This document shows positions 8,912-60,973 of a DNA stretch of 64,000 nt, piece after piece. The translations under genes and the position numbers were made by a program. This DNA is from Polytrichum commune (lineage: Eukaryota > Streptophyta > Polytrichopsida > Polytrichales > Polytrichaceae). The stretch is taken from positions 7,192,001-7,256,000 of the forward strand of contig OX485803.1 of assembly GCA_950295325.1 (NCBI GenBank). Reading direction: 5' to 3'. Every line of letters starts with the position of its first letter. Within the stretch, counting starts at the first letter, position 1. The notes beneath the pieces were generated by a model. That model did not search any database and was not told the DNA's origin. It worked only from the letters and a program-made list of their open reading frames with translations.

Positions 8912-9690
8912 TGTGTCTTGAACCGAGAAACAGAAAATAAGATGGTCATTATTGAAGAAATAGTGAGCATACTTCAATTAACTCAAATGCCTCTGAATAA
9001 ACGACAAAAGGAAAAATTCCCTTTGCGATCCCCCGGGAACTTGTTTGGGCTACACGGAATTGGGTAAAATCCCTGAAAGTGACTTGCCACTGTCAAGTGA
9101 GAAACAGAAAATTAGATGATCACGATTGAAGAAAATAGTGAGCACGCTTCCATTAACTCAAAGGCCTCTGAATAAACGACAAACAAAATACACTTTGTGT
9201 TTGCAGGGAAGTTGTTTGGGCTACACGGAATCGGGTAAAATCTGTGAAAGCGACTCGCTAAAACATGTCAAACCAAGAGAAAAAACAAATGATCATGATT
9301 GAAGAAAATAGCAAGCATGCTCCAATTGACTCAAAGGCCTCTGAATTAACCCAATAATAAGCACATGAAATATTTAGTCAGATAAATAATAAATAAAATA
9401 AAACAAAATAAAATTATGTTCCCAAGGGAACTTGTTTGGGCTACACGGAATCGGGTAAAATCTGTGAAAGCGACTCGCTAAAACATGTCAAACCGAGAGA
9501 AAAAACAAATGATCATGATTGAAGAAAATAGCAAGCATGCTCCAATTGACTCAAAGGCCTCTGAATTAACCCAATAATAAGCAGATGAAATATTTAGTCA
9601 GATAATTAATAAATTAAATAAAACAAAACAAAATTCTGTTCCCCAGGGAACTTGTTTGGGCAACACGTAATCGGGTAAAAAATCCTGAAA
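8912..9690. repeat. Tandem array, about four units of 171-220 bp
   Basis: The phrase AACTTGTTTGGGCTACACGG recurs at about 9038, 9209 (one mismatch), 9429 and, with small changes, 9649. The spacing is 171, 220 and 220 bp. Each unit also contains GAAGAAAATAGTGAGCA-like and CTCAAAGGCCTCTGAAT-like blocks. The two 220-bp units (9206-9425 and 9426-9645) are nearly identical, which points to recent duplication. An earlier partial unit overlaps the candidate exon at 8770-8911. Confidence 0.9.
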
Positions 9691-14677: not shown

Positions 14678-15271
14678 GAGTAATCCCCCGCTTAAGTTCG
14701 CACCCGTTTAAGAACGCATCCCGGTTAAGTGCGCAATTTTTTTGACAAAAATCAAGATTCATACTTTAATGTTTGAACATGTCATGCAGAGTCATTTGCC
14801 ACAAATGCATGAACTTTTTACGCTTGACTCTCAATGTCATATTGTTAACATTTTGTTGAAACGTCTCAAACGATCGTCGCATGCAATTCATCATACATTT
14901 GTCCAACTTCCAATGATTTCACATCGTTGGGCTAATCATACGATGTGAAATCATTTGGCATCATTAGACATTAGCGCCGTTCGTTGCAGTATATTCTCCG
15001 GATTGTCCCAGACTTTCCAGGTGGCGCCTTCACTGACTTCATACTCCCGCCCCAATGCCCGCTTGCTCGGTGCGTTTGGCTTGCTCAACTTTGCAATGAT
15101 TTCACATCGTTGGGCTTCGGTCAAGTGGGTTGCCTCAGGTTTCATCAGTTTCCCGTTGCAATACATTGCATCAAAGGGTCTAGAAGGCGATATGAGTAAA
15201 GTACACACCTACCAACTAAATGCACACCAACAACTCCGATTCAAAGTGGGTACTTAAGTGGGAGATTATTG
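14678..15271. mobile_element. Internally deleted pogo-type DNA transposon with TA target duplication
   Basis: The left end reads GAGTAATCCCCCGCTTAAGT and the right end, inverted, reads CAATAATCTCCCACTTAAGT. Both are flanked by TA (14676-14677 and 15272-15273), as expected for the Tc1/mariner-pogo superfamily. The left end contains three imperfect direct repeats with the core TTAAGNNCGCA (about 14690-14734), likely transposase-binding sites. Inside is a minus-strand fragment of the transposase N-terminus. A perfect 15-bp stem (ATGATTTCACATCGT and its complement) lies at 14914-14956, built from a duplicated piece of the coding part. With 594 bp it cannot encode a full transposase. Confidence 0.8.
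14951..15208 (-). pseudogene. Pogo/CENP-B-like transposase N-terminal fragment (HTH psq type)
   Basis: The reading of about 85 codons contains LTEAQRCEIIAKL, then SKRALGREYEVSEGATWKVW and DNPENIL. This is the pattern of the psq-type helix-turn-helix at the N-terminus of pogo/Tigger transposases: LT..qr.eII.kL, then ..RALareY.VS..ti..vw...e.Il. The likely start is the methionine about 15 residues into the frame or the one that begins it. The CENP-B-type second DNA-binding domain and the whole DDE catalytic domain are absent. The frame ends shortly after NDAK, where the internal deletion begins. Non-functional as a transposase, but it could still encode a DNA-binding peptide if expressed. Confidence 0.7.
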
Positions 15272-32103: not shown

Positions 32104-33335
32104 GTTCCTATGAGCCCAAAATGGTTGCTCATATTTGTTTTATGTTTAGAACTTATTTAGAATTGCATTTGAGGTCATTATTGAAATATCAAAAAGTATA
32201 AAAAGAGTGAGGCTTGGTGTGGATTTATGTTTTAGGCCTTAAGCCTATTTTGTGTGGTTAATTAGAAGCTTAGTGGCATTAGAGAGTGTGTTGGTTAAGT
32301 AAGTAGTGTTTGATGAAGCAAGGGGAAGGTCCTTCGGTTTAAGTGTTTGAATTGGGATCTATCTTGTTGGTTTAGGGGGTGAGGGTTTAGTGGATAGGAT
32401 AAGGTCCTACTAAGTAGGAGAGGGTTAAAGGGTTTGTGGTTTTGGGTGCCCTCTCCTCCTCTTCTTTCCTCTCTTCTTTTTTTCTCTCTCTCTCTCTCTA
32501 GGAAGTTGAGCTCTTAGAGCTCGGAAAAAAATGTGGGAATTAGGTAGGGGACTTAGTAGAATTAATGGAATTAGGAAGGGGAATTAGGTAGGGGACTTAG
32601 TAGGAATTAGTTAGGAGCGGCTGGGATTAGTGCTACTACTAAGGCTCTCGGACTGCTGGGATTAATGCTGGAGCAAGGCTCTCAGACTGCTGGGATTAAT
32701 GCTGGAGCAAGAGCTCTCGGACTGCTGGGATTAATGCTGGAGCAAGGCTCTCGGACTATTGGGATTAATGCTGGAGCAAGAGCTCTCGGACTGCTGGATT
32801 AGTTCTACTGCTAAGGCTCTCGGACTGCTGGGATTAATGCTGGAGCAAGAGCTCTCGGACTGCTGGATTAATGCTACTCCTAAGGCTCTCGGACTGTTGG
32901 GATTAATGCTGGAGCAAGGCTCTCTGACTGTTGGATTAGTGCTACTGCTAAGGCTCTCGGACTACTGGGATTAATGTTGGGATTAATGCTGGAGCCGGGT
33001 ATGGGCCAGGTATGGGCCGGGTAGGGCCAAGGGCCAAGGGCTAAGGTCTTAAGGGGGATTTTGCTCCACAATTAGAGGGTGGTCTGGGGGGTGAGCTTTT
33101 GGTAGTGAGTGAGGGTTGGTGTGTAAATTAGTGTAGGGGGAAGGGGATAGATAGGGAAGAGCACTTTTCAATGCTTGTACTCTCATTATGGAATAAATTG
33201 GTGTGCAAGAATTGATGGGAATTGAAATGGAGCTTTACTAGTTGGTAAGAGGGAGCTATGCGAACATGAATGTGATACCCATTCCCTCACCCGGACTAGG
33301 ACGCTTAAGGGTGGGCGGTTTGGCCTCACAGTTCC
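32104..33335 (+). mobile_element. Solo LTR nested in Copia polymerase, with 5-bp target duplication
   Basis: The 1222-bp insert (32109-33330) is flanked on both sides by GTTCC (32104-32108 and 33331-33335). It starts TATGAGCCC and ends GGCCTCACA, consistent with TG...CA ends in which one terminal G has mutated to A. Plus orientation is suggested by a CT-rich leader (about 32480-32500), an AATAAA at about 33191 and the GGACGCTTAAGGGTGGGCGG-type 3' end. It interrupts reverse transcriptase between its first conserved motifs, and the Copia reading resumes on the other side when the insert and one GTTCC are disregarded. No internal retrotransposon domain remains, so it is a recombination product. 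Confidence 0.8.
32615..33000. repeat. Minisatellite, about eleven units of 34-35 bp, inside the solo LTR
   Basis: Units share GGCTCTCGGACTGCTGGGAT. Two sub-types occur, one with GCTGGAGCAAG and one with GCTACTGCTAAG in the middle, and they partly alternate. The last unit degenerates into GGGCC-rich short repeats (about 32995-33045). The array opens a plus-strand frame of 71 codons, which I consider a by-product. Confidence 0.9.
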
Positions 33336-33730: not shown

Positions 33731-34331
33731 TTCTGGTTCTAAGGCCATGAACGGATGGTAACTCTAATGGCCGAGGCCTTCAATGCCAAGTGCGACGAAT
33801 TGACGAGCAATTAGGAGTATCTTCCCAATGAATTGAAATTTGAACGTGAAATTGTCCATGGGATAATTTGATAGTCAAGGATCTCACGATGGGGTAAGTC
33901 TCTTGATTCTTGGACATGTTCACTAAAATTAGGTGCATGAGAACAACAAACCTCCACTTGCAGATAATAAAGGTACAGTTGCAAAGAAAGATACACAACA
34001 CATAAAGTTGGTCATGGCCAACTTACAACAACTTATTGATATCCAAATTCTGCTTGGAGATTATTGCCTTTTGCCCATGTTGAGGTCTCTGCATTCCTTG
34101 ATGCAATTTGCTCAATGTCGTGACTTGCTTGTATGTGATTATGTGGCAATGATGCAATCATGTATGGCCGAGATCGATATTTCCGAGGTTGATCCAAGCA
34201 CCACCTTTGCCCAAAATGTATTATGAGATTACAATTCACTCATCATATGAAACATGAAGCAATTCCAATGCCATGGATTCCAACGGATGCCCATGGGTTG
34301 GACTTGAACACCAAGGGCTTAGGGGACTTGT
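33731..34331. other. Spacer with an unassigned protein-like plus-strand segment
   Basis: The plus-strand frame 33933-34226 (97 codons) contains ILLGDYCLLPMLRSLHSLMQ and FAQCRDLLVCDYVAMMQSC, which look like real protein sequence. I cannot name the family with confidence. Its opposite orientation to the Copia fragment suggests remains of another element. Confidence 0.35.
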
Positions 34332-34334
34332 ATT

Positions 34335-34666
34335 CACTAGTAAAAAATTGTGCCCCAAAAAACCGCAGTCAAAATCAGCTGCGGTTGTTTTGACCAACCT
34401 GATTTGCAGTCTTTAAACGACTACAAATTTTTCTTTTTCTTTTTGTGGCTGCAATTTTAAAATTTTGGGGGGCATGTAATATACCGTTGGAGTGGTATTT
34501 TCAAGACCTTCCCAACAATATATTTCATGCCTCCAAATTCTTGAACTTTCAGTCGCTAAACCAAAAAAACAAATATGCAGTCTTTTAGCGATTGCAAATC
34601 ATGTTGGTCAAATGAACTGCAACTGATTTCAGTTGCGGTTCTTTTTGACATAGTTTTCTATTAGCG
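34335..34666. mobile_element. CACTA-type MITE, 332 bp, with 3-bp target duplication
   Basis: The left end CACTAGTAAAAAATTGTG and the right end ATAGTTTTCTATTAGCG (inverted: CGCTAATAGAAAACTAT) are flanked by ATT on both sides (34332-34334 and 34667-34669). CACTA ends with a 3-bp duplication define the CACTA/EnSpm superfamily. The inverted similarity extends inward through AACCGCA...AATCAG...GCGGTT. Subterminal GCAGTC/GACTGC words recur, as is usual for transposase-binding sites. Non-coding. Confidence 0.85.
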
Positions 34667-34743
34667 ATTTCACTCCAATAAACCACAACAACACGATATT
34701 CAATATTTTGAGAGAGTAGGATCCTCTCAAAATAATATTGGCC

Positions 34744-34779
34744 ATTTATCAACCTAAAAGTCATGTTAGGTTGATAAAT
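34744..34779. repeat. Perfect 14-bp stem hairpin
   Basis: ATTTATCAACCTAA (34744-34757) and TTAGGTTGATAAAT (34766-34779) are exactly complementary, with an 8-base loop. The TTAGGTTGA word is shared with the array that follows at 34850-35210. Confidence 0.95.
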
Positions 34780-34800
34780 ACTAGATTATACTTTAGACGT

Positions 34801-35249
34801 GTAGTTTCCATTAAAATGAGAGTATGTTAAGCTGGGAAATCGACTCATTTAGGTTGAGTCGACCTAAATGAGGACAATATTTTGTCAATTTAGGTTGAGT
34901 CGACCTAAATGAGAACATTATGTTGTCAATTTAGGTTGAGTCGACCTAAATGAGGACAATTATGTTAGTCAATTTAGGTTGAGTTGACCTAAATGAGGAC
35001 ACTATGTTAGTCAATTTAGGTTGAGTCGACCTAAATGACGACATTATGTTGTCAATTTAGGTTGGGTCGACCTAAATGAGCACAATATTTTGTCAATTTA
35101 GGTTGAGTCGACCTAAATGAGGACATCATGTTGTCAATTTAAGGTTGAGTCGACCTAAATGAGGACAATTATGTTAGTCAATTTAGGTTGAGTCAACCTA
35201 AATGAGTCGATTTCCCATCTTAACATACTCTCATTTTAATGGAAACTAC
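34801..35249. repeat. Palindromic-unit minisatellite enclosed by ~55-bp inverted arms
   Basis: Outer arms 34801-34856 and 35194-35249 are inverted copies with about one mismatch; shared text includes TTCCATTAAAATGAGAGTAT and TCGACTCATTTAGGTTG. Between them are nine units of 41-44 bp, each with the core TTTAGGTTGAGTCGACCTAAA shape: TTTAGGT, a 7-base centre, then ACCTAAA. Unit spacers are of a few types (ACAATATTTTGT, ACATTATGTTGT, ACAATTATGTTAGT), and the order of types in units 1-3 recurs in units 6-8. The whole block can be drawn as a chain of hairpins within one large hairpin. No protein is encoded and no known family is recognised. Confidence 0.9.
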
Positions 35250-36200
35250 GGCGGAATTTACGGCGGAAAATAAAATGTTATTTTTTTACTTGTACTCTAC
35301 AACTTTCTAGTGGTTTTCACTTCATTCTTGGATTAATAGTTTGCTTTATGTACTCTCAATTCACTGGAAAACTCTCATTTTAATGAATATTGTGTTCAAC
35401 ATACAAGCCTTTTATCAAGATCATGCACTTGAGAGTCCATGTGTTGTGACTTGTTCCACGTATGAGGCGATTTGTGATGACTTCAAAGTTTTATGTGAAA
35501 GGTGATCCATAATCTTTAATATCTTCAATAAGTTGTTTCCTTAAAAGTTACTTTGAGCTTGTATATGTGGTTGTTTGGTATCAAATTTTCCATTAAATTT
35601 TGAGTTATGTTGTGCAAATCTGTTGCAGGTTATGCGGAGAGCTCAGTAAGTGAGCTGGAAGTATGCTTCCTTGCTTGCATTCTCATGGATGCATTCGGTT
35701 TTGTTTACCCTCAGTATTGGATGGCAGCTAGTGTCGATGAGTCCTTTGATTGTCACCTGGTTGTGATGGGCACCTGAAGCCACATGGAACCACAAACCAT
35801 GTGAAGACATTGGATCATGTATGTCAATTGATACATGGAATTGTTAAATCGACCATGTAGTTTGTGAGATGCATTGTGACGCACTGTGAGATGACAAGAC
35901 TTGTCAATATTTGATTTTTCGTTGCACATATGAAGAGCAAGATATCAACTCTATGTTAGAATTAATAAACTTGGTCAACTTGGATGACTAGTTAAAGTCT
36001 AGTCGACACCTTATATATTCACTTTGGTCGTTTTAACCAATGTGTGGTCGGTTTGACAATCCCCTTGATATATTGGATATGCATGCATCTCTATTTAAAT
36101 TGACTACGAAGTCTTACTCCGAGGCTAAGAGGAAACAGTGAGGAATGAGAGTTGATGTGGCCTCATAATAATGTCTCCCGAGGCTTCACACTCAATACTA
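35250..36200. other. Spacer, nothing recognised
   Basis: Mixed intergenic sequence. The GGCGGAATTTACGGCGGAA word directly follows the inverted arm at 35249. No gene supported. Confidence 0.35.
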
Positions 36201-55700: not shown

Positions 55701-58700
55701 ACCCTGTTCATGACCGCATTATGCATGTACAATAAGCATAGTTTCACCCAGGTAGCTTCTTTTGCCTCTCTTAAACAAGAGAAAATGAAAGAAAGAAAGG
55801 CAACTCCAATGTTGCCACTGGTGTGAATTATGGTGTTGATTCATTTTCAAGTTGGTCTAAGTCTATATGTAATTCCGAAACATGTATTACGAGAATTAGA
55901 GGCCCCCCAAAGACTACTGCCTCCTTTCGAAGGTGAACACCTTGAACGGGTGGGGACAAGCCGGTTGGCACCTATCTACCCCCAAGGGCAAGTCCCTAGT
56001 TCCCACATGGTTGGTCAAATAGATTTGGTACACCTGGATACCCTTACTATGATTGGGTGGACATGAAATCAAGTGCTAGGAAGGTTGCCCATCTAAGTAC
56101 TATTCTGATCTTAAGCGGCTCAACTTTGGAGTTCTTATGGGATCCGGATTAAGACCTTGGTTTAAGCCACCCTTGAGAGAAAATGAACAACATTGTCATA
56201 TGACTTACACCTTGGTATGAATTTTGATGTGCTCTAGGTTCTGAGGCTGTGGAGTTCATCATCAACCATGCTGAAGTTGCCATCGCCTTTGTGCAAAGTA
56301 CAAAGCTTGATATCGTAAGTATGCCTTTGCACAAACACTCATGTCTCCATAAGTTTTCCATATCATCACTGTGATTGGGAATGACTGCATCATCATTAGA
56401 TTGAGCTTGTATTCAACTATTCAGCTACACCAAATTCTAGATGAACTCTCCTACACTTATTGCTGACAAAGATTTGTGTACCCTGTATTGCAGATTCTCA
56501 CCTCTCTTCCCAAGTGTACAGAGTACTTGAAGAGTAAGATCTTCTCATTTACCAACTTCTTGCAACATAGTGCAATTCACAGTCAAGAGCTTCTAATGAG
56601 AGTACATTTCTGGTCTTCTATTTCAAGCAAATGAATTCTCCTATCAGAATAAATCTCTTTTGATAATCACTCTTACATGGCTATGCAACTCCCATATTGC
56701 AGCGATTGTGAGCTTCTCAACCATCACAGATGAACAGAAGGCTACAGCGAGTGCTTCTGGTGTGAAGCTGTATGCTTGGGAAGATTTTGTGGCTCTGGTG
56801 GGTACACATGGTTGAACATTTCCCAGCGGATTCTTTTATAATATATATTCCATATAAATCACAAATCTGAGTCAAGTGCTTTTGCACATATCTTTATGTG
56901 TTTACACACCCTTTTTTTGTTAGTCATTTTGCTGAAGGCATGTGTACCAGCTAGAATTTGCACATTTACAAAGCGAATAGTGGATGATTTCAGGGTGTGA
57001 GTAACCCAGCGCCCGCCTTGTGCCCACCAACTTCTTCTGATATCTCCACCATAATGTACACAAGTGGAACAACTGGTGAGCCTAAGGGGGTGCTCTTAAC
57101 TCACGAGAATGTCTTGACCTGTGTCAATGGCCTTGATTACTTCTTAAAGTGTAGAAACGAAACTGTAAGTAATCCCCTTTGCCTGCCTACTTGACTCTGC
57201 ACATCTTGGATCTTATTACGAAGATTTCTGTTGAAGTTTTGTACTTGTCACAGGTTTTACTAAGGTTTTCATCAAAATCAGGAAGATTGATACGATTGGA
57301 TTGGGTTGAGTGGATTATCTGTTGTATTGGTGTGCATATATATGTTTGCATTTCGGACACAATCTATACATATTCCTACTGTGACTGATCTTCCACATGT
57401 GGGTTGTCAAAAATTTCAGCTAAATGAGAAGGACGTATACTTCTCATTTTTGCCTTTGGCTCACATTTTTGATCGTGTGAGCGAAGAATTCTATGTTTAC
57501 ATTGGTGCTTCAATTGGTTTCTGGCAAGGAGTAAGTTTGATCGTCCCTCCCTATTAGGTTTAGGCTACTTTCTTGAGGATAGTATTTGTTCAGCTCTAAT
57601 TTTGCAATGCCAGCTAACTTTTTGGTTTTCTCAAATGTGGAATGTTTACATGTCCAGGAAGGGTTGGTTAATTTTTTGGGTTAATGCTTTTACCATTTTC
57701 ATGCAGGACATCAAGAAAATCACCGAGGATTTGGCAGAGTTGAAGCCAACAATTTTCATTGGAGTTCCTCGAGTCTTTGACCGAATCTACACAGGTGAAC
57801 TCCACTGTAATGTCATACAATTGCATTTTTCCATTACCATACCTTAAAAGATGGATATCTGTAATCTTCATTCAATCAACCAAGATGTGCTGGGTGTGTT
57901 TGAATGGCAGGAATATCAAGTAAGATTACTACTGCTGGTGGTATCAAGAAGTGGCTGTTTGATCTTGGTTATTCGCTGTAAGTTCTCAAATATGTGCAAC
58001 ACTATGTTTATGTCTTTCCTTAATAGCTGTATCCTGGAGCATTAGTTTGATCGTCAATGGTAATCTGATTATATATGAGGTTGGAAGAGCTTTTTCTTGG
58101 ACTTGTTTCTCTCCTCCATTGCAAATAAGAAATTTTATTTATTATTCTTAGGCACTCTGCAAGTGAGGTGCCTTTTAACATGTCTGACTTGACCTTTCCC
58201 TGGCATTGGTCTTTTTCAGCAAATTGAAGTCACTCTGGAAAGGCAGCAAGCAAGAAAAAGCTTTCCCTTTAGCTGATAAGATAGTATTTAATAAGGTTTG
58301 TTTTTCTTTTTGCTGCCTATCACTTTCTTTCACTACAGTAGTAGACAGATTTCTGTGCTTGTTGGACTTGTTTATGCTTGCATCCATATTGGCGCTGATG
58401 AAGTGGTAACTCACTGTCAGGTGAAAATGGGACTTGGAGGGAATGTTCGCCTCATTATTTCAGGAGCTGCACCACTTGCTACCCATGTGGAAGAGTTTCT
58501 CCGAGTTGTGACTTGTGCACCAGTGGTCCAGGGCTATGGTAATTACACCATTTTCTTTTGTTTAAACATGGCATTCCTTTGATTTTGATTGGCCCTGAAT
58601 GTTTGTTGGAATGTACTTAGTTTTTATTAGCTATGTTGTGCACAGGAATGTGGTCGAATTTGATGGAACTCTCCATCCTTTGGTTATGGTTTTTATTATA

Positions 58701-60973
58701 GCACCATATGCCATAGTTTGTGTCTACTATCATCACGAATGTATCCACCGTCCTACAATTTCCAACGACTTCAAATTTAAAGATCAAAAAGACATAACTC
58801 ATGCTTGTATCCCACATTTGGATGTAAAAGGGAACACTTGATAGTCACAACAAGTGGACAAAGTGTTGTTCAATGTGAAGGCAAGTGATGAGCAGGAAAT
58901 CAGTTCAAACATTCGTTGACACTGGTAACGTTTTCCTCTTTTCCAGGATTAACCGAGTCCTGTGCAGCGAGCTTCATCCAGATGCCAAATGTCATCAGCA
59001 ACCATGGAACAGTTGGGCCACCCCTGCCTAATATTGACGTCCGGCTGGTGTCTGTTCCTGAATTGAATTATGATGCCCTCTCAGATCCTCCAAGAGGAGA
59101 AATCTGCATAAAGGGGAAGACATTGTTTTCTGGCTACCACAAACGTCCTGACCTCACTGAAGAAGTGCTTAGTGCTGATGGTTGGTTCTCAACTGGTAAG
59201 CTTCTGCGGTGACCTTTACAAAAGGACTGGAGATTTGTTTAGATGGGATACGTGACAATTTATACAAATCCCCAACAAGTATTGAACTAGTGTTTTATTT
59301 GGTCTATGTTGTTATTGAAACCACATTTAGCACTACGTATAGAAAAGAGGAAGTGAATGTAAAGTCATATGTGAAAATGGTGATTATAGACAGGTGGTAT
59401 GTATTTGAATCTAGGTCATGCCCTTAAATCTCCCTATCATTCATCCTACATATATTTATGCCCTGATTATAATGCACACAATAAATGGGCCAGTCTTAGA
59501 TAGGGTTACTTTTGACACTTTTAGCTATGAATATGAAGAAGTAATCTCCAATCCCTCCATATGACATGTTGAGGCGCAGAATGGGCCTCACAGACCTTTG
59601 AGGGTTTATGTCATGAATGTGAGTCTAAAATGTGTCTCTTAGACACTCCAGCTACATCGAGAAAGAGCTGAAACTTCCTGAGTTGTTACATGTTCCAAGG
59701 CGTGCTTGAATTTCTCAAACTTATCAAACAATCTCAGTGCATAGTTTGGGATTCAGGTTGTACTTCACATTATGTCCGGCTTTTTGGCTGTATCACAATT
59801 TTCATTTGTTCCTCCAATTCAGTTCAATACTCCTGGCCAGCTTGTGAAAAAAGATAGTTACTCTTGATAACGATGTTTCTATGTATGACAGGTGATATTG
59901 GGGAATGGCAGAAAGACGGCTCCTTGAAAATCATTGATAGAAAGAAAAACATCTTCAAACTGTCACAGGGTGAATATGTTGCTGTGGAAAATCTGGAAAG
60001 CATCTATGGTCAATGTGAAGCCGTGGATCAGGTTAGAGCACTTAATTATTAATGTTGAACTGTCTTTCAAATACTGTAGAGTGTTGATAGCTAATTTCCA
60101 TTTTGGATATGGCACGTAGCAATAGTGTCCATGAAATAGTTCTTTTGTGTTGAACCCTCATTACTCTACAGTATAGGTAGTGACAGTAGAACAAATACCA
60201 GAAACTCATGTGATCATGTTGGCGACTTGTTATGCAGATTTGGGTGTATGGAAACAGTCTAGAGTCCACACTACTTGCAGTCGCCGTTCCCAATGAAGCT
60301 GCGATTAAAGATTGGGCAAAGAGTAATGGTGGCGAAGATGACATGGCTAAACTTTGCCAAGACCCAAAGGCGCAGGCCTATATTCTCTCACAGCTCAATC
60401 TCACAGGAAAAGCCAAGAAGGTAAAATATGAATGCTAACAATAAGCACACAAATATTCGATCTTTGCAGGCATCTGTCATATTCTATCGAGTAAATCATG
60501 TCAAAGTCTATTGTTATGTTTGGTTTTCGGATCATATGTCTTTGAAATTCATTAGTCCTTGTGTGAATTTAGTAGGTCAAGTGCAAACACTATGTATCAT
60601 CATGGTTGTAACTATTTTGAAATACTGTCAGGTGAAGGGATTTGAGGCTCTCAAGGGGCTGCACTTAGAGCCACTCCCATTTGATGTGGAGAGGAATCTA
60701 GTAACACCTACCTTCAAGCTCAAGAGGCCTCAACTCCTCCAATACTACAAAGTAAGCTTCCTAATCTTGACACAATTTCCAGATGCTTCCCATAATTTGA
60801 TTCTGGTTAAATCTATTTTAAAGAGCAGGCAAGGATGTTTCTGTTTTCACAAAGTTTCTTTTTTCAATGATTTGGACAAAAAGTATCCAAAAGTGAGTTG
60901 TAATCACCATTTGTGATGGGTGGTTGTACAGACCCAGATTGATGCCCTCTACGCAAATCAAAAGAAGCTATAG
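52742..60973 (+). CDS. LACS4: Long-chain acyl-CoA synthetase, LACS2/LACS4-like, 19 coding exons, 664 aa
   Basis: Activates long-chain fatty acids to acyl-CoA with ATP and CoA, for membrane, storage, cutin and wax lipids; LACS1-5-type enzymes usually sit at the endoplasmic reticulum. Exons: 52742-52896, 54819-54885, 55005-55094, 55329-55385, 55633-55681, 56238-56314, 56494-56533, 56703-56797, 56994-57164, 57420-57530, 57707-57794, 57911-57977, 58220-58295, 58421-58538, 58947-59195, 59892-60031, 60238-60420, 60632-60751, 60932-60973. All introns are GT-AG, phases join without a stop, and 1995 nt give 664 residues (family about 660). Start MATQYEYLW; the conserved [14 protein letters not shown] follows at once. 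AMP-binding loop [11 protein letters not shown] 232-242; [10 protein letters not shown] in exon 10; GYGLTES 419-425; TGD 503-505; [16 protein letters not shown] 517-532. The C-terminus QKKL is not a canonical peroxisomal signal, and no N-terminal targeting peptide is evident, unlike LACS6/7/9. Whether it is the LACS4/5 or LACS2 orthologue is unsure. Introns 1, 5 and 15 carry repeats. Confidence 0.95.
53065..53930 (+). repeat. Three ~290-bp tandem units in LACS intron 1 (family B-related)
   Basis: CCCAAAACCC recurs at 53072, 53368 and (as CCCAAAACCT) 53647, spacing 296 and 279 bp. Each unit continues with GGGTCA..GCTTGTTCCAGGAT (weaker in the third), TTTCCTCATAATTTTCG-type, GTGCTCATTAAATGGTCATA-type and GAGCCTAGAATGGTTAA-type blocks. 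The later blocks are those of family B. A further GGGTCACAGCTTATTCCAGG lies at about 54132. Confidence 0.85.
55805..56160 (-). mobile_element. 5S rRNA-derived repeat, copy 2, in LACS intron 5
   Basis: The plus strand 56083-56148 reads as the antisense of plant 5S rRNA over most of its internal promoter: GGTTGCCCATCTAAGTACTA, then TTAAGCGGCTCAACTTTGGA and GTTCTTATGGGATCCGG. The part 55818-56060 matches the copy at 48150-48440. The element is antisense to LACS and lies wholly within intron 5 (55682-56237), so it does not alter the protein. Cassandra TRIM LTR or 5S-derived SINE are the candidates. Confidence 0.75.
59255..59460 (+). repeat. Dispersed repeat in LACS intron 15
   Basis: It shares ACAAATCCCCAACAAGTATTG, GTTTTATTT, AGAGGAAGTGAATG and TCATATGTGAAAATGGTGATTA-type words with 17745-17935, in the same orientation. 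Confidence 0.55.

Follow-up and report, generated by a model that had tools for sequence, protein, structure and literature searches.

The nine-unit palindromic array of this region lies inside a 707-bp non-autonomous transposon (34690..35396, + strand) of the window, that is, of the whole 64,000-nt stretch of Polytrichum commune DNA that was analysed. We put the probability at about 85% that this element represents a family of non-autonomous DNA transposons of the MITE/foldback type in which palindromic units form an internal minisatellite. The family has discrete ends, 4-bp target site duplications (TSDs), a paralogous empty site and hundreds of dispersed copies, and its variable array is carried whole. 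The original prediction had described a chain of nine palindromic units at 34801..35249. The array was found in place, with a spacing of 41-43 bp; its extent had been judged correctly and its frame too small, the array being enclosed in a 707-bp element with its own ends and TSD.

Boundaries and internal organization of the element

The limits of the element were set from the matches of copies elsewhere, the terminal inverted repeats (TIRs), the TSD and the pairing of the ends. The word caac is present on both sides, as left (34686..34689) and right (35397..35400) TSD. The 5' end (34690..34714, +) holds a 13-bp TIR, AACACGATATTCA, within a conserved 25-bp end, and homology to other copies starts at 34684-34690. 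At the 3' end (35372..35396, +) the TIR reads GAATATTGTGTT (reverse complement AACACAATATTC...), so that the two 13-bp TIRs are AACACGATATTCA and, with the 3' end read reversed, AACACAATATTCA. A subterminal hairpin, TTTTGAGAG...CTCTCAAAA, is predicted by folding directly inside the 5' TIR (34704..34734, +). The window's list of open reading frames contains no frame of at least 110 aa that overlaps 34690-35396.

The array itself (34847..35203, +), delimited by unit search and spacer typing, consists of nine 23-bp near-palindromes with quasi-palindromic spacers. The units start at 34847, 34888, 34929, 34972, 35014, 35055, 35096, 35138 and 35181, i.e. 41-43 bp from start to start, and have the consensus ATTTAGGTTGAGTCGACCTAAAT. 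Tandem Repeats Finder reported 34847-35206 with a period of 41, 8.6 copies and a score of 547, as well as further periods of 126 and 167. On either side lies an inner inverted arm: the left arm (34801..34869, +), which includes unit 1, and the right arm (35181..35249, +), which includes unit 9, are 96% complementary over 69 nt. Inverted arms of ~55 bp had been noted here; they are present and inverted as described, and they exceed this length because the first and last units are included. In the window copy the spacers run A B D E B A E D. The first three (A, B, D) correspond to the sixth to eighth, in which A and D return on either side of a B relative that was filed as E because it was counted one base longer. 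The reported return of the spacer-type order of units 1-3 in units 6-8 is thus borne out. The 707-nt element folds at -321 kcal/mol, compared with -156 +/- 6 in 20 dinucleotide shuffles (z -27), and the unit has 1847 matches in the genome (at most 2 mismatches) versus 0 for the reversed control. Neither the array nor the folding of the window element is due to chance.

A perfect 14-bp hairpin had also been noted before the array, and the inverted-repeat search recovered it at 34744-34779 (+). This perfect hairpin is a minority form among copies. The TATCAACC arm occurs in 8 of 54 copies of the stretch, GGACACC in 42 and neither in four, and in six copies, the window element and five more, both arms are perfect; GGACACC is also the form found in the old copy L043. 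The perfect form would fit template switching, which in a quasi-palindrome may exchange a near-copy of the opposite arm for an exact one.

Several other repeats were noted in the window. A second fold-back stretch, with 143-nt arms that are 73% complementary, adjoins the left end of the element (34329-34672). A tandem array with a 34/69-bp unit and ~10 copies of 34 bp occupies 32641-32980, and overlapping tandem repeats of 173 and 220 bp are found at 8928-9680. Frames at 57473-57847 and 60425-60916 resemble, by eye, exons of what is presumably a long-chain acyl-CoA synthetase.

Dispersed copies, target site duplications and an empty site

The genome searched comprises 408 Mb in 64 contigs, and contigs C1-C7 carry nearly all places listed. 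A 651-bp query of the region gave 116 genome matches, with 40 of 288 candidates scored. Twenty loci of 10 kb were retrieved, one of which (L009) is the window copy. The 18 further loci that have both ends (L010-L027) all match the window from 34684-34690 to 35396-35412. Some of these loci share further repeats with the window elsewhere. In the twentieth locus, L028, the array counts 23 units, and the 3' end is preceded by ~1.6 kb of other sequence. The 25-mer of the 3' end has 282 genome matches (at most 3 mismatches) and that of the 5' end 176 perfect matches, with 0 for the reversed control in both cases; like the 1847 matches of the unit, these figures are pattern counts and not whole copies read. 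With 282 matches to its 3' end, the structure for which copies elsewhere were to be sought is not a single-locus one. Along C1 to 51.2 Mb, the stretch common to both lists of perfect matches, each of the 19 perfect 3' ends has a perfect unit no more than 1 kb away.

Exact 4-bp TSDs flank 34 of the 38 insertions read, and the remaining four agree at three of four bases. When the flanks of the same 38 insertions were paired randomly, exact 4-bp agreement had a mean of 1.5 and a maximum of nine. The TSD words have no common sequence, with 28 different left words among the 38, and are 76% A+T. The joined flanks of 19 copies were searched in the sequence retrieved, which yielded one clear case of the empty site that the original prediction had proposed to look for. 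This is a paralogous relative of the L012 insertion, located in the window itself (14681..15267, +), with 80% identity over 590 columns including 43 gap columns, most of which fall together in a stretch to the left of the junction. No gap affects the junction itself, where a single ATTA stands without the element. A possible second empty site, L019 versus L041 (72 bp, 78%), is too weak to count. The tandem structure with its multi-unit duplications is what a satellite or a product of local duplication, rather than a mobile element, would display; such an origin is refuted by the dispersed copies, the fixed ends, the TSDs and the empty-site relative, and we assign it a negligible probability.

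Two pairs of family copies (L052/L053 and L059/L060) have identical 8-bp left flanks at sites ~20-50 kb apart. They are perhaps segmental duplications and could show array change after duplication. Head-to-head pairs of copies (L041, L042) were considered as a composite element with whole copies as ends; this reading was discarded since, of the four copies, three are flanked by exact 4-bp TSDs of their own and the fourth agrees at three of four bases. Between the two family copies of L042 (5619-6796) lie frames with a SWIM-like zinc-finger motif, as judged by eye, which we take to be perhaps a MULE remnant.

Ends that carry the 13-bp TIR with other inner bases gave 81 matches against 57 for the reversed control, and 48 against 10 in a second search, the latter excess including 3'-end variants such as ATTC and six of AACACAATATTCAGTG. 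This last sequence occurs six times in the genome, e.g. at C2:22299990 and C7:41854395, and perhaps marks another family with similar ends. The sole close inverted pair among the variant ends is L043, an old family member; a variant-end pair 13 kb apart (L044, L045) showed no units and no further likeness.

Array length varies between copies

Differing unit numbers were to be sought among copies elsewhere, and the copies read range from 0 to 23 units. The 190-bp copy L057 has no units and is flanked by the exact TSD agat. For a wider view, 96 of the first 100 listed perfect 5' ends were used, the four beyond the range of the 3' list being dropped. Among the matches listed, 67 of these 96 have a perfect 3' end as partner at a distance of at most 25 kb. 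The distance between the ends is 373-1409 bp in 66 of the 67 pairs and mostly follows a ~42-bp ladder, from which 4-7 units are inferred as the commonest array lengths; the 67th pair is a family copy on C3 split by a large element. Nine-unit copies are over-represented among the loci read because the search query carried nine units.

Of 251 unit spacings, 247 measure 41-43 bp. The spacer strings along 32 arrays contain alternations and blocks, for instance ABABABABE, ABDABDEC and AABADBAD; 16 of the 32 begin with AB and 15 finish with EC or DC. Strings such as ABABABABE and ABDABDEC suggest duplications of two and three units. The window copy and L010, which lie on different contigs, are 98.6% identical and have the array order ABDEBAED in common, and beyond the element no other match of at least 300 bp was detected in the window part compared. 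L018 and L021, again on different contigs, share another array order. Since sister copies at unrelated sites have the same array, arrays are carried whole during moves. The array is a variable-number tandem repeat. These observations bear on the earlier suggestion of a "foldback transposon with expanding ends": the element is mobile and folds back, and its array varies in length and shows multi-unit duplications. The expanding part, however, is the middle, and the true ends lie ~110-150 bp further out, at 34690 and 35396.

Base changes in units, spacers and flanks

The paired positions of 283 units contain 85 one-sided and 0 compensatory changes, and no sign of selection on base pairing was seen in these units. 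Non-CpG divergence amounts to 1.2% in units (found with at most 6 mismatches), 2.0% in spacers (n = 251; measured against the closest of six types) and 1.9-2.1% in flanks (54 and 33 copies). These samples are not equivalent, as 20 of the 54 copies are short loci picked for a perfect 5' end. Changes at CpG sites are in excess, reaching 6.4% per site at the unit centre and 6-11% in the flanks, a pattern that methylated, silenced DNA would show.

The array might be a functional binding platform for the transposase or a host dimer, raising transposition or recruiting silencing and kept by selection, with the 23-bp palindromes displayed on one helix face (41-43 bp, about four turns). The constancy of the spacing (247 of 251) agrees with such a role, as does the non-CpG divergence of the units, which is somewhat below that of flanks and spacers, and Galileo is reported to have extra transposase binding sites in its internal tandem repeats (PMC4079207). 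Homogenisation would, however, account for the slightly lower unit divergence, and the 0 compensatory versus 85 one-sided changes argue against maintenance of the palindrome. In addition, the unit has, by eye, only TTGAG in common with the TIR, and copies with 0 and 2 units (L057 and L030) have exact TSDs, though loss of units after insertion is possible. We therefore regard a binding platform as unlikely. Under the preferred reading, a transposon with a minisatellite interior, the array would grow and shrink by slippage, template switching or unequal exchange of unit blocks, with hairpins helping, and the palindromes would be mainly a by-product of this turnover. Any transcript of the element would form a long hairpin suited to small-RNA silencing.

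Very large DUF7869 transposons with matching ends

Judged from its ends, the array family is probably moved by very large transposons whose ends match its own. No intact coding element with family-identical AACACRATATTCA ends was found among the ends examined, which were the 19 perfect 3' ends on C1 to 51.2 Mb and 20 of 29 unpaired perfect 5' ends (among the matches listed); eight of the 29 were left out because units or a mutated 3' end had already been seen beside them, and C4:24780012 was also left out. Sixteen of the 20 lead into two or more units. In L051 one unit is followed by other sequence, L055 is the split copy on C3, L056 runs into other sequence and L057 is without a unit.

An 18.6-kb candidate for an autonomous copy (C3:2838603-2857243) was rejected, as it proved to be a family copy whose array is interrupted by a 17.3-kb element. 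The latter measures 17,321 bp (C3:2838883-2856203; L068, L069) and has the ends AACACTATATTCGTTA and the TSD attt. Among its frames, one of 539 aa encodes a DUF7869 domain (E 1.1e-38) and another of 260 aa a NIF-type phosphatase domain (E 4.3e-13); the remaining eight that were scanned gave no family match above the cut-off. This multi-frame 17.3-kb transposon is perhaps of more interest than the array. An inserted element with the ends CACGGGTAGGTC...GACCTACCCGTG was also noticed by eye inside the family copy (L055/L067; C3, ~2856500-2857100).

The 16-base end of the large elements has 1273 genome matches (635 + 638), and its reversed control none. In the first 100 ends listed, 19 adjacent pairs less than 25 kb apart face inward versus three that face outward, and 16 of the 19 inward-facing pairs are 14.4-22.8 kb long, nearly all of them 14-18 kb. 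All ten large elements read, which were picked for perfect ends and not for duplications, have an exact 4-bp TSD. At one end of large transposons a hairpin word after the TIR, TTGAGACT...AGTCTCAA, resembles by eye the subterminal hairpin of the array family.

A genome search for DUF7869 gave 1489 candidates, and the 150 that were scored all passed the cut-off; dozens (among the matches listed) have open frames of 502 or 692 aa. The domain was absent in 14 control genomes. On C1, 10 of 14 DUF7869 domains (among the matches listed and within the range of the end list) lie 1.34-2.3 kb inside a perfect large-element end. Of the four misses, one resembles the 502 type and the others are of the 692/677 or an unclear type. 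Among 19 listed cases of the 692 type, 18 have another end, ATGGGGATATTAACTAAAATGAGA. Two copies of such a second DUF7869 family, with 692-aa frames and the end ATGGGGATATTAACTAAAATGAGA, are 99.7% identical (L070 1-1510, L071 1-1500); no second end was located for them. All five DUF7869 domains read share the words LP..L..Q and VGHTH[ED]D[IV]D, which would suit a DDD/E transposase. For the DUF7869 protein, nothing was found in PDB by sequence, in NCBIfam or in PHROGs, no viral relative was confirmed in viral contigs by a scan that reaches close relatives only, and the full-text literature searched held no paper under the name DUF7869, nor one on the genome of Polytrichum commune.

Compared with the palindromic-array family, the ends of ten young large elements, AACACTATATTCGTTAAATTGAGACTTT, agree with the 3' end in 24 and with the 5' end in 20 of 28 bases; those of the C3 element (L068/L069) agree with the family in 20-22 of 28. 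None of 10^6 letter shuffles reached this likeness for the 3' end and six of 10^6 did so for the 5' end, figures that overstate the surprise somewhat, since the likeness was noticed first and tested later in a shuffle test that was not blind. Because the ends agree at 24/28 and 20/28 and the 4-bp TSD is common to both, the large elements or a close relative are the likely source of transposase. At the ends, the array family and a large element have a weak 52-bp match (75%, E 0.017), and the one 17-kb element read contains no unit and nothing significant in common with the array family beyond its ends. A simple deletion derivative would share sequence beyond the ends, and in this one element none was found.

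That a different transposase (e.g. hAT, PIF, CACTA or MULE) moves the element and that its likeness to the large elements is due to chance would be in line with a clear identity limited to ~28 terminal bases. TSDs are 8 bp long in hAT, 3 bp in PIF, 2-3 bp in CACTA and 8-11 bp in MULE elements, and the consensus-free 4-bp TSDs of the array family misfit all four. Agreement of 24 of 28 terminal bases together with equal TSD length is moreover unlikely by chance, and a different transposase is in our estimation improbable. On the preferred account, the transposase of the DUF7869-encoding ~17-kb transposons, or of a close relative, would recognise AACAC-N-ATATTC-N ends and would cut and paste the array family.

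The large DUF7869 elements are ~17 kb long, with more than 1200 perfect ends in the genome and many open frames. A broader proposal would make DUF7869 proteins the transposases of plant transposons, hardly described so far, that are very large, carry several genes and perhaps form a land-plant branch of Sola, with the palindromic-array family as their parasite and the array, at four helical turns, as a length-tunable protein platform. As a whole we consider this picture unlikely.

Classification and comparison with known elements

The window element belongs to a large set of insertions, little diverged from one another, that hold 0 to 23 palindromic units carried along by transposition. This set constitutes a natural experiment on the birth of minisatellites and satellites inside transposons, and also on the effects of hairpin arrays on mobility or silencing. 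The search for its partner exposed abundant very large transposons coding for DUF7869.

As in MITEs, the family has TIRs at fixed ends, a constant 4-bp TSD, many dispersed non-coding copies and an empty site. Elements of the FB/Tetris type are defined by long TIRs that hold tandem repeats, whereas here the TIR identity is short and the array central; the whole element nonetheless folds into one hairpin. The DUF7869-family end AACAC-N-ATATTC-N is present in the array family. The Sola superfamily is described as having 4-bp TSDs, short TIRs and lengths that can exceed 15 kb (PMC10741241, PMC3627910, PMC9033089), with A+T-rich 4-bp TSDs in Sola2 (PMC3627910). Sola is reported from the moss Physcomitrella and said to be rare among flowering plants (PMC10741241), and is listed for two Capsicum species as well (PMC9033089). 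The 4-bp TSD with short TIRs was found in 34 of 38 insertions of the array family and in all ten large elements. Ends, TSD length and the size of the large elements fit Sola, which makes them candidate members on these features.

Non-autonomous elements with variable tandem arrays are known, and include miDNA4 and Xstir of Xenopus and Pearl of bivalves (PMC9659126, PMC12628747). miDNA4, a MITE of Xenopus tropicalis, resembles the array family in being non-autonomous and in having an interior tandem array of one monomer or variable copies (PMC9659126, PMC12628747). Unlike the array family, with its palindromic unit, partly palindromic spacers, inner arms and 4-bp TSD, it is reported there as Tc1/mariner. 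The Drosophila elements Tetris and Galileo likewise fold back and have variable internal tandem repeats, and the internal repeats of Tetris are reported to have seeded a satellite (PMC4079207, PMC4168063). In these elements, however, the repeats lie inside long TIRs, with TSDs of 8-10 bp in Tetris, whereas the array family has short TIRs and a central array. A MITE of Porphyromonas gingivalis, a bacterial element, is also reported to contain a minisatellite (PMC4596501). A variable internal array in a non-autonomous element is therefore a known kind, of which the palindromic-array version is a new variant. The present family stands out in that its unit and its spacers are both palindromic, which makes the element a single long hairpin; its 4-bp, DUF7869/Sola-like affinity and the large, little-diverged series of copies are also unusual.
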